A stretch of DNA of 64,000 nt from Neotamlana sargassicola (GTDB lineage Bacteria > Bacteroidota > Bacteroidia > Flavobacteriales > Flavobacteriaceae): NCBI RefSeq assembly GCF_020523965.1, contig NZ_JAJAPX010000007.1:1-64000 (forward strand), given 5' to 3'. This document shows positions 1,016 through 6,540 of this stretch, piece by piece. Every line of letters starts with the position of its first letter. Position 1 is the stretch's first letter. The position numbers and the translations under genes are program-made. Below the pieces are notes generated by a model. It saw only the letters and a list, made by a program, of their open reading frames with translations. It was not told the origin of the DNA and did no database searches.

Positions 1016-4000
1016 TTATTTATTTCGCATCACTTTAACATTCATTTCTTCTACTTTTTTATCAGAAAGTAACGATGGTGCTCCAAATAATAAATCGTCG
1101 CTAGTACCTGTTTTAGGGAAAGCCATAACCTCGCGAATTGAGGTTTTCTTTTCTAAAATCATCATCAATCTATCCACACCCCAAGCAATACCACCATGTG
1201 GTGGTGCACCGTAATGGAATGCTTTGTACATGGTGCCAACGCTTTTAAGCATTTCTTCTTTGTTGTAACCCATGTTTTTGTAAGTAGCTTCTAGAATTTC
1301 AGGTTTATGCGCACGTACCGAGCCGCCACCAATTTCGTAACCGTTAAGTATTAAATCGTATTGCTGTGCGATAATGCTTCCTATCTCTTCTTCCTTGCCA
1401 TTCATGTGTTTTTCTATGTCGTAAACAGCTGGCATCGAGAATGGGTTGTGGGTAAACGTCCAACGGCCTTCATCGGTTTTTTCAAACATTGGGAAATCAA
1501 TTACCCAAGCAGGTCGTAATTCTTTAGGGTTAATTAATTTTAACATGCTTCCTAATTCCTGGCGAACCGCGTCTAAAGCCTTGTTTGCTGTGGCATAATC
1601 GGCGGCAGAGAAAAATACTATATCGCCAACTTGTGCTTTTGTAGTTTCAATAATTTTGCTAGCAATGTCTTCACCTAAAAATTTAATAATAGGCGATTGC
1701 AAGTCGTTTTCGTTTACAATTATATAAGCTAAACCACCTAAGCCATGTTGTTGGGCAAGTGTGGTAAGTTTTTCTATTTGTCCTTTAGACAAGCGTTTTT
1801 TACCTTGCTCTTCTGCCGATACTTTTATGCATTTAACAATACCGCCATCTTCAATAGGTTTGCTAAATACCTGGAAAGTCGTGTCTTTTACAATATTGGT
1901 AATGTCTTGCAGTTTTAAGCCAAAGCGTAAATCTGGACGGTCGCAACCGTAAAAATCCATAGCTTCTTTATAGGTTAACACTTCAAACGGACGTAAAATC
2001 CATTTTTTGCCATAAATTTTGCTAACAATAGTGTTAAACATTTTAGTGTTTAAATCTATAATTTGTTGCATGCTGGCGTAGGCCATTTCAATATCCAATT
2101 GCGTGAATTCTGGTTGGCGATCGCCACGAGAATCTTCGTCTCTAAAACAACGGGCTAACTGAAAATACTTTTCGTAACCACTCACCATTAGCATTTGCTT
2201 AAATTGCTGTGGCGCTTGTGGTAAAGTATAAAATGCACCGGCTTGTTTGCGCGATGGTACAATAAATTCGCGGGCGCCTTCATCGGTTCCGGCACTTAAA
2301 ATTGGCGTTTCAATTTCTAAGAAATCTTCATCGTCTAAAATATCGCGCATTAATTTAATAACCTTGTGTCGATTAACAATTGTGCGACGTACATCGTTAT
2401 TTCTGTGATCTAAATATTTGTATTGAAAACGTACATTTTCGTTAGTTTTTGTAGCGCGTTTTATTTCGAAAGGCAAGGTTCTAGATAGGTTTAAAATATC
2501 TAAATCGCTGGCTTCTAATTCAATTTTTCCAGTGCGTAAGCTTGGGTTGTAATCGTCTTCCTTACGTTGCACTATTTTGCCAGAAACTGTAATTACAGAT
2601 TCAGGTTTTAATTTAACAAGCTCGTCTAAGTTTACAAAGGACTCACGACTTAAACGCACTTGAAAAATTTCGGTGCTCGAATCGCGTAAGTCGATAAACA
2701 TTAACTCACCATGATCGCGCACACTAGATACCCAACCTGCAAAAGTAACTTCTGCGTTAATGTTGTCTTCGTTAATATCGGTGATTAAATGTGTGCGATA
2801 TTCATCTTTTATAACAAGCGGTATTTCTGGAAGAATTTCTTCTTTGGCTGTCTGTTGTTGGTTGTTTGTTGTTGGTTGTTCAGTTCCTGTCTTTGTTGAA
2901 CTTTCAACTTTTAACTTTGAACTTTGCAGCTGCTTTAAAATGCCTTCGCGAATTACTTTACCCGAAGCGCCTTTACCAATTATACCAATAACTTTACCAA
3001 CTAAAATACCCGCTTTTCCTTGGTTTCCGGCTTTAATATCGGTTGCAATAGCTTCGTTTTCGCTTATAACTTTTGCAATAGCATCTTGTATTTTTTCTTC
3101 GGAAATGGTATTCGCTTCAAAATAAGATTTGTAATCGAATTTAGCATCACTTAACAACGATTGTATCGCGTTTTGAGCTAAAACCGGAGTTACTTTTTCG
3201 GCTTTAAACAAACTGAAAATAGTGATGAAATCTTCAACATTTTCAATTTTAATATAATCTTCGGCCTTTACATTATTGGTTAAGGTTTTTGCAACAAACG
3301 AAGGATCTTGTAATGTGTTATTTATAGCTACAAAAGTTTCAGAGCGTAAACTATCGGCTGTAAAAAACTTAGCATCTTGTGGTAAAACGCCGCCGCCAAT
3401 TAAAATAGATTCAACAGCAAAAGGTAAAGCGCTTAAATCGACATCAATACTTTCGATAACCGATTTTATGTTTACAAAAGGTAAATCGGGCTCCGAAATA
3501 AATCGGTAATCGGCCTCGTATTCCTTTTTACGCATGGTTTTAGTTTGCTTTAAATCGGCATCAAAAAGCACGGTGGTTTGGTCTGGCCTAAACGCATTGT
3601 TCTCAATAAAATAATTAAGTTGTTTTTCAACTTCTTCCTTTAAAGCATCAACCATAAACTTAAACGAGTTTAAGTTTTTTATTTCGGTTCTTGGGTTTAA
3701 ATCGTTGCTGTTTTTTTTACGAAGTGAAACAGAAACATCCGATTTAAATTCACCTTTTTCTAAGTTAGCTTCAGAAATTTTTAAATTTTGAACAATACGT
3801 TGAATGTATTGCGCGTAAGTTGAAGCATCTTCGATATGACGAATACATGGGTCGGTAACAATTTCAATTAACGGTACGCCAGCTTTATTAAAATCGACTA
3901 ACGAAACCTTTTTTTCATGCATTAATTTCGCCGCATCTTCCTCGATATGTACTTGCGTTAAACTTACGGTAAATTGGCTACCGTCGTTACGAAAACACGA

Positions 4001-4354
4001 TACTTTTCCGTCTGGAATTACCGGGTTGTGATACTGCGTAATTTGTATGTTTTTTGGGTTGTCTGGGTATTCGTAATGTTTTCTGTCCCAAGAAATAACT
4101 TCGTTTTTAAACGACGATTCTACAGCTTTTCCAAAATAAATAGCCTTAGTAACAGCGTCTTTGTTTATGGCTGGTAAAACACCCATTTGCCCTGTACAAA
4201 CCGAACAAATATTTTGGTTTGGTGTTTCAATTTCTTGGTTCGGACAAGAACAAAATAACTTTGTTTTTGTATTTAAACGTACGTGAGTTTCTAAACCTAT
4301 AACAAGTTCTAGCTCGTGTTTATCTAAAAGTTGGTTTAATTGTTCTAGCTCCAT
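1016..4354 (-). CDS. gatB/aspS: Bifunctional GatB amidotransferase subunit / aspartyl-tRNA synthetase
   Basis: This single frame of 1112 residues joins two complete enzymes. Residues 1 to about 470 are GatB, with the IGLETHVRL motif, the zinc-type cysteines C35, C37, C50 and C53, and a YqeY-like tail. GatB turns misacylated Asp-tRNA(Asn) or Glu-tRNA(Gln) into the amide form. Residues from about 505 are a bacterial-type AspRS with an OB-fold, class II motif 2 (RDEDSRGDRQPEFTQ), a GAD insert and motif 3 (GGIAWGVDRLMM). The linker (about 475-503) is low-complexity. H548 in RDHG matches the histidine known from non-discriminating AspRS, which also charges tRNA(Asn). The start ATG overlaps the gatA stop by one base (TAATG). 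Such fusions are known in Flavobacteriia. Confidence 0.95.
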   Translation of the reverse strand: MELEQLNQLLDKHELELVIGLETHVRLNTKTKLFCSCPNQEIETPNQNICSVCTGQMGVLPAINKDAVTKAIYFGKAVESSFKNEVISWDRKHYEYPDNPKNIQITQYHNPVIPDGKVSCFRNDGSQFTVSLTQVHIEEDAAKLMHEKKVSLVDFNKAGVPLIEIVTDPCIRHIEDASTYAQYIQRIVQNLKISEANLEKGEFKSDVSVSLRKKNSNDLNPRTEIKNLNSFKFMVDALKEEVEKQLNYFIENNAFRPDQTTVLFDADLKQTKTMRKKEYEADYRFISEPDLPFVNIKSVIESIDVDLSALPFAVESILIGGGVLPQDAKFFTADSLRSETFVAINNTLQDPSFVAKTLTNNVKAEDYIKIENVEDFITIFSLFKAEKVTPVLAQNAIQSLLSDAKFDYKSYFEANTISEEKIQDAIAKVISENEAIATDIKAGNQGKAGILVGKVIGIIGKGASGKVIREGILKQLQSSKLKVESSTKTGTEQPTTNNQQQTAKEEILPEIPLVIKDEYRTHLITDINEDNINAEVTFAGWVSSVRDHGELMFIDLRDSSTEIFQVRLSRESFVNLDELVKLKPESVITVSGKIVQRKEDDYNPSLRTGKIELEASDLDILNLSRTLPFEIKRATKTNENVRFQYKYLDHRNNDVRRTIVNRHKVIKLMRDILDDEDFLEIETPILSAGTDEGAREFIVPSRKQAGAFYTLPQAPQQFKQMLMVSGYEKYFQLARCFRDEDSRGDRQPEFTQLDIEMAYASMQQIIDLNTKMFNTIVSKIYGKKWILRPFEVLTYKEAMDFYGCDRPDLRFGLKLQDITNIVKDTTFQVFSKPIEDGGIVKCIKVSAEEQGKKRLSKGQIEKLTTLAQQHGLGGLAYIIVNENDLQSPIIKFLGEDIASKIIETTKAQVGDIVFFSAADYATANKALDAVRQELGSMLKLINPKELRPAWVIDFPMFEKTDEGRWTFTHNPFSMPAVYDIEKHMNGKEEEIGSIIAQQYDLILNGYEIGGGSVRAHKPEILEATYKNMGYNKEEMLKSVGTMYKAFHYGAPPHGGIAWGVDRLMMILEKKTSIREVMAFPKTGTSDDLLFGAPSLLSDKKVEEMNVKVMRNK
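2853..2926. repeat. Tandem simple repeats encoding the GatB-AspRS linker
   Basis: On the coding strand, four 7-base units of the form NAAAGTT lie in a row (complement of about 2897-2926). They are followed by a CAACAA-type run (complement of about 2853-2881). Both keep the reading frame and encode the Ser/Lys/Thr/Asn/Gln-rich linker. Similar simple repeats are common between genes in flavobacteria. Confidence 0.7.
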
Positions 4355-5754
4355 TATATCGTGTCTTTTAAGAAGTTAGCAAACTTCAAAACAAGTTCGT
4401 CGTTTTGTTTGGCGGCTGTAATTTGTAAGCCAGTTTCTGTGCCTTGTGGCACGGTTAAAGTTGGTAATTGCCCAAGGCTAAAACCAACCGTGTAAGCATC
4501 GCTTAAATACATGGCGTGCGGATCTTTTAAACTATCGCCAATTTTAGGCGGTGTATTTGGTGTAACAGGAGAAAGTATAATGTCTACTTTCTTAAAATCA
4601 TCTTCAAAATTGTTAGCAATGGCATCGCGAAGCGCTAAACCTTTTAAATAAATAGCATCCGAAAACCCTTGAGAAAGTACTTGGTTACCACCAACAATTC
4701 TTCGTTTTGTTTCTTCGGAAAAATTTTCTGATCGTGTTACAGCGTAAGTTTCTTTTAAATTTTCGGCTTCAATACGGTTGCCGTAGTTGGTGCCATCTAA
4801 ACGCGATAGGTTAGAGGCAGTTTCGGCCATGGCTAAGGTGTAATATGTTGAAACCAAAGTATTCGATTCGAAGAAATCTAAAGGTTTTACCTCGATGCCT
4901 TTGGCTTTTATTTTTTCTATAGCTGAAAGAAAATCGGCTTTAATTTCAGGTGAAATGGCATCACTCTCAATAAAGTTTTTAAAATATCCTACTGTTTTTA
5001 TGCCTTCGGAAGTTTTTATAGCGTCTGCATCAATTTCCGCGGAAGCGTAAGTGGTTTGGTCTTTAACATCTTTACCGCTCATGGCGTTAAGCACAATGCG
5101 GATATCTTCAACCGATTTAGCAATAGGTCCAACGCAATCTGTAGACGATGCGTACGCCATAATGCCGTAACGCGAAATGCGTCCATAAGTTGGTTTTAGT
5201 CCATAAATATTGTTGTAACCAGCGGGTTGACGAATTGAACCGCCAGTATCGCCACCAATAGAAAATACAGTGTAATTTTTAGCAACATTTACGGCAGAAC
5301 CACCACTAGAACCACCGCCAACAAGTTCTGGGTTTACGGCATTTTTTACAGAACCAAAAATGGTGTTTTCGCTAGACGAACCATGGCCAAAACTATCGCA
5401 GTTTTCTTTAACTAGAGGAATGGCGCCGGCATCTAACAGTTTTTGAATGGCTGTTGCCGTGTAAGCCGATTTGTAATTTTTAAGCAAATTAGAACTCGCT
5501 GTTGTGGTTGTACCTTGTACCATGTAAACATCTTTAATACCAAATGGGATGCCTTCTAAAAGGCCAATGTTTTCGCCGTTGGCAATTTTTTCGTCTACTT
5601 TTGCAGCCAAATTTAAAGCGGTATCGCTTAGTAAACTGTTTACAGTATTGTTGGTGTTTTGGCTTAAAAGCTCCAATTTTTCTTGAACCAAAGCGGTGCA
5701 AGTTATTTCTTTGTTTACCAGTTGTTGGTGTATTTTTAGTATTTGTGAGCTCAT
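4354..5754 (-). CDS. gatA: Amidotransferase subunit A (glutaminase), GatA
   Basis: This 466-residue protein belongs to the amidase-signature family. It should release ammonia from glutamine and pass it to GatB. The catalytic Ser-cisSer-Lys triad is visible: K74 in IPFGIKD, S149 in GGGSSGGSA and S173 in GGDTGGSIRQP. All three lie five residues before the positions known for S. aureus GatA, and the length is normal. The gene lies two bases after gatC, and its stop overlaps the start of gatB/aspS, so the three are translationally coupled. It should share the Asn-leader control upstream of gatC. Confidence 0.97.
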   Translation of the reverse strand: MSSQILKIHQQLVNKEITCTALVQEKLELLSQNTNNTVNSLLSDTALNLAAKVDEKIANGENIGLLEGIPFGIKDVYMVQGTTTTASSNLLKNYKSAYTATAIQKLLDAGAIPLVKENCDSFGHGSSSENTIFGSVKNAVNPELVGGGSSGGSAVNVAKNYTVFSIGGDTGGSIRQPAGYNNIYGLKPTYGRISRYGIMAYASSTDCVGPIAKSVEDIRIVLNAMSGKDVKDQTTYASAEIDADAIKTSEGIKTVGYFKNFIESDAISPEIKADFLSAIEKIKAKGIEVKPLDFFESNTLVSTYYTLAMAETASNLSRLDGTNYGNRIEAENLKETYAVTRSENFSEETKRRIVGGNQVLSQGFSDAIYLKGLALRDAIANNFEDDFKKVDIILSPVTPNTPPKIGDSLKDPHAMYLSDAYTVGFSLGQLPTLTVPQGTETGLQITAAKQNDELVLKFANFLKDTI

Positions 5755-5756
5755 TT

Positions 5757-6023
5757 TTATTCTTCTATAACTTTAGAAACTACTAAATAGCCGTTTTTTT
5801 CTTTTGGGAAATTTTCAATGATGATTTGCTTTTCTAAAGCAGAACTTTCTATAACAACATCGTCGCGTAAATCTTGAAGCGAAACACTGTTTTTGTTTAG
5901 GTTGATGGATGCTTCGCCGTTTATGTCAGCGCTTTTAATGTCATCAAACAATTTGTTAACAGCTTCACTTGGTTTTGCACCTTTAATGCTCGATAATATA
6001 TCGACCGTCATTAATTTGCTCAT
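5757..6023 (-). CDS. gatC: Divergent amidotransferase subunit C, GatC
   Basis: This 88-residue protein is the first full gene of the operon. Its C-terminal half (LRDDVV, then ENFPKEKNGYLVVSKVIE) matches the GatC tail that wraps around GatA and ends in a VPKVIE-type motif. The N-terminal half lacks the usual HIAKLARLEL helix of GatC, so the protein is divergent. Position, size and the two-base gap to gatA support the call. It should stabilise the GatA-GatB complex. The start at 6023 is 18 bases past the U-tract of the leader terminator, so transcription of this gene depends on read-through. Confidence 0.8.
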   Translation of the reverse strand: MSKLMTVDILSSIKGAKPSEAVNKLFDDIKSADINGEASINLNKNSVSLQDLRDDVVIESSALEKQIIIENFPKEKNGYLVVSKVIEE

Positions 6024-6040
6024 GGTATTCTTTTGGTATT

Positions 6041-6070
6041 AAAAAAAGCCTTCCGTAACCGGAAGGCTTT
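6041..6070 (-). terminator. Leader terminator (attenuator) of gatC-gatA-gatB/aspS
   Basis: AAAGCCTTCCG (6045-6055) pairs perfectly with CGGAAGGCTTT (6060-6070) around the loop TAAC. On the minus strand the hairpin is followed by seven T (6047-6041). It lies between the operon promoter and gatC, so it must be passed for the operon to be expressed. Its promoter-proximal arm can pair instead with 6090-6096, giving a terminator/antiterminator switch. Confidence 0.88.
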
Positions 6071-6096
6071 CTATATTTTTAAACAATAACCTTCCG
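6060..6096 (-). promoter_or_regulatory. Predicted antiterminator stem of the Asn leader
   Basis: On the minus strand CGGAAGG (6096 to 6090) starts four bases after the leader stop codon. It is perfectly complementary to CCTTCCG (6066 to 6060), the first arm of the terminator. The two structures are mutually exclusive. A ribosome at the leader stop would cover 6096-6090 and let the terminator form. A ribosome held at the Asn codons would leave it free, so the antiterminator would form. The pairing is seen directly. The mechanism is inferred by analogy with amino-acid biosynthetic attenuators. Confidence 0.75.
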
Positions 6097-6100
6097 AATC

Positions 6101-6148
6101 CTAAAACTTAGAATTATTGAAATTATTATTGTTATTGTTGTTTTTCAT
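6101..6148 (-). CDS. Asn-rich leader peptide (MKNNNNNNNFNNSKF)
   Basis: This 15-codon ORF runs from ATG at 6148 to TAG at 6101-6103. Nine of its codons are Asn (AAC/AAT), seven of them in a row at codons 3-9. It starts about ten bases after the expected transcription start and ends just before the antiterminator arm. The peptide itself probably has no job. Its translation should sense the supply of Asn-tRNA(Asn), the likely product of the operon it precedes. It is too short for normal gene calling. The alternative is a chance AAT repeat, but the promoter, the switchable stems and the matching pathway argue against that. Confidence 0.8.
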   Translation of the reverse strand: MKNNNNNNNFNNSKF

Positions 6149-6164
6149 GGTCTTTAAATCGCTT

Positions 6165-6172
6165 CAAAGATA
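6165..6172 (-). promoter_or_regulatory. Promoter -7 box of the gatCAB-aspS operon
   Basis: TATCTTTG on the minus strand fits the Bacteroidetes -7 consensus TAnnTTTG. It lies 16 bases before the leader ATG, giving a 5' UTR of about ten bases. No clear -33 TTTG is seen. Confidence 0.65.
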
Positions 6173-6179
6173 TGGAGAA

Positions 6180-6540
6180 ATAAACGATTAAGCATCATGT
6201 TTATAAATATACTAACAGATATTAATAATTTATTAAAAATAGGTTTTATTCTTTGTTAGTTTTTTAGTGATTTGTGTTATTGATTAACAGTGCTTGGGTT
6301 TTTGATGCGAAATTGAAACTTTTTAATTTTTCTTGTAAGAATAATATATAAATGATTGATTTTAAAATAAGCTTTTTAAGCTCATTTTAGCTGGTTTTTT
6401 GTTTTGAGAAACAAAGAAATTTGGTTAAAACTTTATTTAAGCTTGTTTTTAGTTGTTTTAAGAGGTTTTTGTTGTAATTAACAATTGTTGATAAATTTAT
6501 TGCTGAGTCGATAAAAAGCTTTTTAAAAGGGCTTTTATTT
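6180..6540. other. AT-rich intergenic stretch, no gene seen
   Basis: This divergent spacer lies between the gat leader and the gyrB promoter. It is AT-rich with short A and T runs. I see no convincing ORF, RNA gene or ordered repeat. A minus-strand frame crossing it runs into gyrB and looks like a shadow. Confidence 0.5.

Follow-up and report, generated by a model that had tools for sequence, protein, structure and literature searches.

The stretch of DNA analysed in our study, which we call the window, comprises 64,000 nucleotides (nt) of Neotamlana sargassicola (assembly GCF_020523965.1, contig NZ_JAJAPX010000007.1, positions 1 to 64,000). Special attention has been given to the leader region upstream of its gatC gene; judging from its sequence, we consider this region very likely to be a ribosome-mediated transcription attenuator that senses Asn-tRNA(Asn), the tRNA charged with asparagine (Asn). 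The minus strand carries gatC (5757..6023, ATG at 6023), gatA (4354..5754) and a fusion of gatB and aspS (1016..4354). GatC is divergent (88 amino acids, aa; NCBIfam gatC E 1.4e-4 and 22.1 bits, under the cut-off of 47.1), and GatA is likewise under the cut-off of TIGR00132 (434.4 against 481.1 bits), with a Pfam Amidase match at E 4.9e-114. The first-pass annotation of this DNA had read an operon gatC-gatA-gatB/aspS; the genes are present, but gatB and aspS are not separate, being joined in a single open reading frame (ORF) of 1112 codons that encodes GatB (aa 13-478) and a bacterial-type aspartyl-tRNA synthetase, AspRS (aa 518-1110). The gatB::aspS product is probably one part of a transamidosome, with GatB and AspRS covalently joined. 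Named genomes were scanned for the fusion, which yielded 80 loci (the best 80 of 554); gatC lies upstream of gatA and the fusion in 79 of them, always in the order gatC, gatA, fusion, and the remaining locus, L099, ends at a contig edge before gatC and was left out of the leader counts. The upstream neighbour of gatC in the window is a divergently oriented ORF on the opposite strand, named gyrB-like by reading.

The leader itself begins with a predicted promoter-like box, TATCTTTG (6165..6172, minus strand, as are all the following elements), of the form TAnnTTTG, which we take, from knowledge of Bacteroidetes promoters, to be the -7 motif; transcription would start from it. The leader ORF, MKNNNNNNNFNNSKF (6101..6148, from ATG at 6148 to TAG at 6101), has 15 codons, nine of which are Asn (codons 3-9, 11 and 12). 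Four bases (6100-6097) separate its TAG from region 2 (6082..6096), which consists of the antiterminator arm CGGAAGG (6096-6090) followed by TTATTGTT. The partner of this arm, at 6068-6060, also belongs to the 5' arm of an intrinsic terminator hairpin (6045..6070, arms 6070-6060 and 6055-6045) with a run of seven T (6041..6047). The box, the Asn-rich frame, the CGGAAGG past its stop and the seven-T terminator had been pointed out in the first-pass annotation, and each of them was found where it had been placed. In the minimum-energy fold, region 1, made of the Asn codons AACAATAAT (6125..6133), pairs with GTTATTGTT at 6090-6082. The pairing counts in the alignment described below add region 1', CAATAATTC (6111..6119; CAATAATCC in most relatives), as an alternative partner of GGTTATTG, and a small hairpin that takes in the stop codon of the leader (6099..6113; CCTA...TAGG in most relatives). 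The fold of the 155-nt leader region has z = -5.28 relative to 200 shuffles. A crude scan for a short ORF, an antiterminator arm, a terminator and a T run gave one match on the minus strand of the window, namely the gatC leader; in 800 kb of the same genome, on both strands, it gave four rows, which fall at three further places; all of them lack an amino-acid run, and two contain an internal stop.

Among the 79 named Flavobacteriaceae operons that reach gatC, the leader, with its Asn run, TAG, antiterminator arm and terminator, is present in 48 and absent from 31, a degree of sharing that is not attributable to chance; Tamlana sedimentorum and Algibacter luteus are examples of its culturable hosts. 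It is important to note that leaders were recognized by a pattern for NFNN(P/S) codons, so that part of the constancy of that block arises by construction; no leader of another form was found in a wider ORF screen, in the upstream regions inspected or in the scan with R1, our covariance model of the leader. Our alignment, A1, contains 49 leaders: the 48 of the named relatives and that of the window. In all 48 relatives, a TAnnTTTG box begins 18-27 nt upstream of the leader start, and a run of at least five T begins 54-64 nt past the first base of the leader stop. Start, frame and stop are intact in the 49 leaders, which have 14-16 codons with 7-10 Asn, and the stop is TAG in every one, compared with 17 of the 79 gatC genes. 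Asn codons -11 and -12 vary chiefly at the third base, as translated codons do; this synonymous variation, together with the preserved start, frame and stop, shows signs of leader translation. Codons -4 to -9 hardly vary at any position, a behaviour expected of RNA arms, although nine of the 49 leaders have Arg, Thr or Leu at codon -8. In seven of the 49 (L074, L085, L109, L115, L116, L100 and L077), CGT (Arg) replaces one Asn codon of the run; six of these seven carry GGTTGTTG instead of GGTTATTG in region 2, a variant seen in 13 of the 49 overall. At one locus (L069:4037-4330), an intact leader is followed by about 165 extra bases between the terminator and gatC.

The R1 model extends these observations to a family survey of 249 Flavobacteriaceae genomes. 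Strong matches (E <= 1e-18) occur in 26 of them: 25 of the 41 genomes with the fusion, plus G174, which was scored as having no fusion although its contig stops inside gatA. Twenty-four of the 26 matches lie 1.7-1.8 kb upstream of the fusion on the same strand; the match in G174 precedes gatC, and in G220 the match and a partial fusion are on separate contigs. Strong matches thus stand before gatC in 25 of the 26 genomes, G220 being unplaced relative to gatC. When R1 was run on 395 class-wide genomes, the only strong match was in the window's own genome. Such strong conservation where the leader exists argues for a function there.

A plain terminator or insulator, which would end upstream transcription or set a constant read-through and would stand beside a chance A/T-rich ORF whose peptide has no role, appears very improbable to us. 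A/T-rich DNA makes Asn codons cheap, and the 31 relatives without the leader share a promoter-like box near gatC instead. However, the stop codon, the Asn run, the antiterminator arm and their spacing are kept in the 48 named loci; the divergent orientation of the gyrB-like neighbour leaves little to insulate from; and the antiterminator arm would have no role, yet it is almost invariant.

The structures that an attenuator would require were examined by counting paired cells for four structures on the 49 sequences of A1. Region 1:2 with its inner hairpin is paired in 96.2% of cells, and the helix of the region 1:2 pairs plus a 4-bp UUUC/GGAA stem in 97.5%. The small stop-codon hairpin is paired in 93.5%, with a double change from C-G to U-A in L116. 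As the first-pass annotation had proposed, the first arm of the terminator can pair with CGGAAGG: the antiterminator GGAAGG/CCUUCC is paired in 98.3% of cells, compared with 26-73% when the arms are slid. The terminator is paired in 96.8%, and its covariation score is above all 500 shuffles; the terminator rows of L046, L054 and L109 look misaligned and were kept unchanged. The pairing of region 1', CAAUAAUCC with GGUUAUUG, occupies 99.5% of cells and falls to 13-55% when slid by 1-3 columns; it has no covariation, and it would explain why the Phe-Asn-Asn-Pro codons are frozen. Every arm has two or three partners, and this probably explains why the arms are invariant.

Folding of the 49 leaders with everything up to 9 nt past the A-site codon masked follows the expected course of a translating ribosome. 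While the 3' arm of the terminator is still missing, the antiterminator forms with a mean probability of 0.99-1.00 when the A site lies at codons 3-13; the value is 0.92 at codon 14, 0.76 at codon 15 and 0.05 at the stop. For the stage at which the 3' arm has yet to be made, the idea that a ribosome held on the Asn codons frees the antiterminator arm is reproduced by the folding model, which predicts the antiterminator for a ribosome on these codons and not for one at the stop.

It is also important to consider a leader peptide whose signal is not Asn-tRNA but the invariant Phe codon, a general slowing of the ribosome or an RNA-bound protein. The antiterminator is predicted for a stall at nearly every codon before the last two, Phe occupies codon -6 in all 49 leaders (where the recognition pattern required it), and among the 15 sub-threshold Rfam matches (E <= 1) to the leader region (5990-6230) the best is Phe_leader, with 32.4 of the 55 bits needed. 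Nevertheless, we regard this explanation as improbable: a single constant Phe stands against 7-10 Asn, the Phe-Asn-Asn-Pro codons are explicable by RNA pairing, and the downstream genes make Asn-tRNA and not Phe-tRNA. We find direct binding of uncharged tRNA(Asn) by an RNA sensor (T-box-like or of another kind), with no translating ribosome involved, extremely improbable. No Rfam family, the T-box included (RF00230, which we take to be the T-box riboswitch), reaches its gathering score anywhere in the window, the T-box is absent from the 15 matches in the leader region, and what is conserved is an ORF, complete with start and stop, for which a T-box has no need. The precedent for such a sensor comes from tRNA-dependent amidation genes of Clostridium acetobutylicum, to go by the title of Saad et al. 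2012.

The Asn-tRNA(Asn)-sensing attenuator must also be viewed in light of how this organism obtains asparagine. The genome encodes AsnRS (asnS), GlnRS (glnS) and a second, free AspRS; neither tRNA(Gln) nor tRNA(Asn) therefore depends on GatCAB for its charging. The first-pass annotation had asked for asnS: its presence means that the operon is not the only charging route for tRNA(Asn). Our searches of the genome found no AsnA, and no AsnB match came near the family cut-off (the best has E 1.2e-16), so the operon, whose enzymatic activity we deduce from its genes, is probably the cell's only source of asparagine, made on tRNA. Across the family survey, canonical AsnB (E <= 1e-150, with five matches right at the cut) is found in none of the 41 fusion genomes and in 182 of the 208 others (Fisher p 1.3e-32, kinship ignored); AsnA occurs in none of the 41 and in seven of the 208, all without AsnB. 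The remaining 19 fusion-free genomes have neither, and none of them, G174 among them, has a GatB domain. The other 18 (G144, G148 and G223 are examples), which lack canonical AsnB, AsnA and GatB, are possible asparagine auxotrophs, carry an AsnB just below the cut or are incomplete assemblies. AsnB below the cut was inspected in 12 of the 41 fusion genomes. In the first sample, AsnB-like matches over the family cut-off were found in five of 14 fusion genomes, and the six proteins compared share 26-35% identity with canonical AsnB. A link between these genes and the leader was rejected, as they occur both with it (G037, G047) and without it (G005, G009, G064). Upstream of asnB, a short ORF with at least four Asn codons was present in three of 18 regions, and none resembles the gatC leader.

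The fused AspRS is probably non-discriminating, that is, it would also aspartylate tRNA(Asn). Its nearest solved chain, by a very narrow margin over chains of the discriminating type, is 4wj3_M, named as an Aspartate--tRNA(Asp/Asn) ligase. In the D-H-G motif, His is found in the fused AspRS of all 80 loci and also in 4wj3, whereas 6hhv and 1efw have Leu and the cell's free AspRS has Lys. We take His at this position to mark non-discriminating enzymes, 4wj3 to be the Pseudomonas aeruginosa transamidosome, and 6hhv and 1efw to be Thermus thermophilus structures. The organism's own tRNA(Asn) has the U1-A72 pair: the tRNA-Asn in L208 starts with TCCTCAG, and its acceptor strand ends in CTGAGGA. 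No other tRNA-Asn was present when the loci of 30 of the 35 tRNA matches were inspected.

These elements suggest the following mechanism. When Asn-tRNA is ample, the ribosome would pass the Asn codons, reach the TAG and cover the GGAAGG arm, so that the terminator would form and gatC-gatA-gatB::aspS would be off. When Asn-tRNA is scarce, the ribosome would stall on the Asn codons, GGAAGG would pair with CCUUCC, no terminator would form, and the operon would be transcribed. The GatB-joined AspRS, with GatA and GatC, would act as a transamidosome with a covalent link between its parts, first producing Asp-tRNA(Asn) and then converting it by amidation into Asn-tRNA(Asn). Since the operon is probably the only asparagine source, the switch would let an operon for amino-acid biosynthesis be controlled by its end product, which here arises on tRNA. 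With more reserve, we lean toward a broader picture in which GatB::AspRS, GatA and GatC have replaced asparagine synthetase, so that asparagine is made solely on tRNA; the attenuator would then be a one-step feedback on the direct product of the operon, Asn-tRNA(Asn), and the first known Asn-specific leader peptide, and the Phe-Asn-Asn-Pro and TAG block would serve both as peptide code and as the arm holding the antiterminator.

Several observations weigh against this interpretation. First, the stems show few of the compensatory changes that the first-pass annotation looked to, their arms being almost invariant: the terminator does covary, but 18 of its 19 double-change cells sit at a single pair that closes the loop, and covariation is not above shuffles either in region 1:2 or in the antiterminator, where almost nothing varies. 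Second, the probability of the antiterminator before the 3' arm exists averages 0.86 (range 0.00 to 1.00) with no ribosome at all; it forms unaided in most leaders, and the 1:2 stem alone is therefore a weak guard. Third, the full-length equilibrium favours the terminator in all ribosome states (0.91-1.00), so that control must be kinetic, exerted during transcription; attenuation of the trp operon is likewise kinetically controlled. Fourth, other Bacteroidetes leaders also commonly contain Asn as filler, and the search against solved structures does not separate the AspRS types (E 1.3e-132, 1.4e-132 and 1.6e-132). Finally, the Asn-rich frame and alternative pairings that were expected upstream of gatC in relatives are conserved in the 48 operons mentioned above and missing from the other 31 of the 79, as well as from 16 of the 41 fusion genomes of the family survey; operons without the Asn-rich frame go part of the way toward what the first-pass annotation had said would count against the switch. 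When 81 fusion proteins (80 of them labelled) are placed on a FastTree tree, the label for the leader switches nine times or more, by gain or loss. As the operon exists without the leader in these 31 relatives, the predicted switch is dispensable in several lineages, and leader regulation is not essential everywhere.

Leaderless operons of distant genera (for example, L095, L102, L043 and L040) have in common a stretch AAAnCTTTnGTAATTTnnC...CTTAnAnnTTT near gatC, with a TAnnTTTG-like box, which in many leaderless loci also carries a small inverted repeat, AAACTTT/AAAGTTT. This conserved stretch is a putative promoter or operator of another kind. In the 31 leaderless loci and L099, R1 gave 18 weak matches, none directly upstream of gatC; the five places inspected proved to be Trp leaders (L078, L086 and L107) and plain terminators (L112 and L108). 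Among the 38 family genomes with only weak matches, four were inspected, with similar results: plain terminators in G164 and G061, a Trp leader in G046 and an Ile/Val leader in G043.

Other leader-peptide attenuators are found in the same group of bacteria. Passages of a study of Flavobacterium psychrophilum describe clues of leader-peptide attenuation in its amino-acid operons (PMC9723704). The family RF01692, Bacteroid-trp, is also a Bacteroidetes peptide-leader attenuator, but it has Trp codons and other arm sequences, and the gatC leader does not match it: RF01692 is absent among the Rfam matches of the window and of the leader region. In sampled relatives, it is found before trpE-like genes at L078 (58.1 bits) and L182 (51.2 bits), with peptides MKNSTNNTWWWNSLNS and MKNNNTHIGWWKLRNALSQ. 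In several Polaribacter and their relatives (L078, L107, L074, L115 and L109), a trpE-like gene lies directly downstream of the gat operon, and where its upstream region was inspected (L078:9446-9568 and L107:9367-9512) a Trp leader peptide precedes it; thus, two leader-peptide operons can be neighbours. A Flavo-1 RNA (RF01705, 60.2 bits) lies close to the operon at L114:2370-2449 on the plus strand. Leaders rich in Phe/Tyr or Ile/Val, followed by terminators, stand before PheA-, ilvE- and ilvD-like genes at L234, L235, L236, L237 and L180, none of them at the Rfam gathering score.

A retargeted Phe leader was considered as the origin of the Asn leader and rejected. The four class-wide R1 matches outside the window's genome (53-59 bits) are other attenuators: Phe/Tyr-rich leaders before PheA-like genes (L234, L235 and L236) and an Ile/Val leader before an ilvE-like gene (L237), the genes being named by reading. 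By eye, L234 resembles the Asn leader; R2, a model built from sequence alone for the stretch upstream of the terminator, omits L234 and ranks L235 at E 0.11. The best other R2 match (E 0.0038), in L262, falls within an ORF on its antisense strand and was taken as chance. The plain terminator in G164 outscores these leaders under R1 (61.6 bits). These attenuators share the architecture of the Asn leader; a common origin is not supported.

With respect to gene content, the passages of PMC4206432 describe Bdellovibrio, Deinococcus and Thermus, in which Asn-tRNA is formed by a two-step route that coexists with AsnRS; AsnRS, GlnRS and GatCAB occur there with no AsnA or AsnB and asparagine is made on tRNA, as proposed here. 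For Bdellovibrio, that paper reports charging assays of the AspRS and the rescue of an E. coli strain auxotrophic for Asn. In their survey of 547 genera, 18 have this combination, with Bacteroidetes among the clades, and so the gene content itself is not new. A second AspRS is reported there in five of the 18 genera, all Deinococcus-Thermus; in our organism, the second, bacterial-type AspRS is fused to GatB, and those passages name no GatB-AspRS fusion or leader. The strict mutual exclusion of the fusion and canonical AsnB suggests why bacteria with AsnRS and GlnRS retain GatCAB, and the fusion operon offers a natural covalent transamidosome for study.

With respect to regulation, ribosome-mediated attenuators are known for the trp, his, thr, phe, leu and ilv operons. 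The gatC leader has in common with them a short ORF in which codons for the product form a run, a competition between terminator and antiterminator, and a stop codon just before the antiterminator arm; it differs in that its codons are Asn and its target is an operon for tRNA-dependent amidation instead of enzymes for a free amino acid. We know of no Asn leader peptide, and a literature search of titles and abstract beginnings, with few subscription journals covered, returned no Asn leader peptide, no leader peptide before gatCAB and no GatB-AspRS fusion. The kind of attenuator is therefore known, while its Asn specificity and its gatC-operon target look new; if our interpretation is correct, asparagine would join the amino acids sensed by leader peptides. 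A regulatory counterpart is a clostridial T-box that is reportedly specific for Asn. The gatC leader would attenuate a tRNA-dependent synthesis pathway, a task that Clostridium has solved with a T-box. There, to go by the title of Saad et al. (2012, JBC), the same kind of genes in C. acetobutylicum has its amidation controlled by a tRNA-sensing RNA; that T-box senses uncharged tRNA directly, whereas the gatC leader would act through a predicted translated leader peptide.
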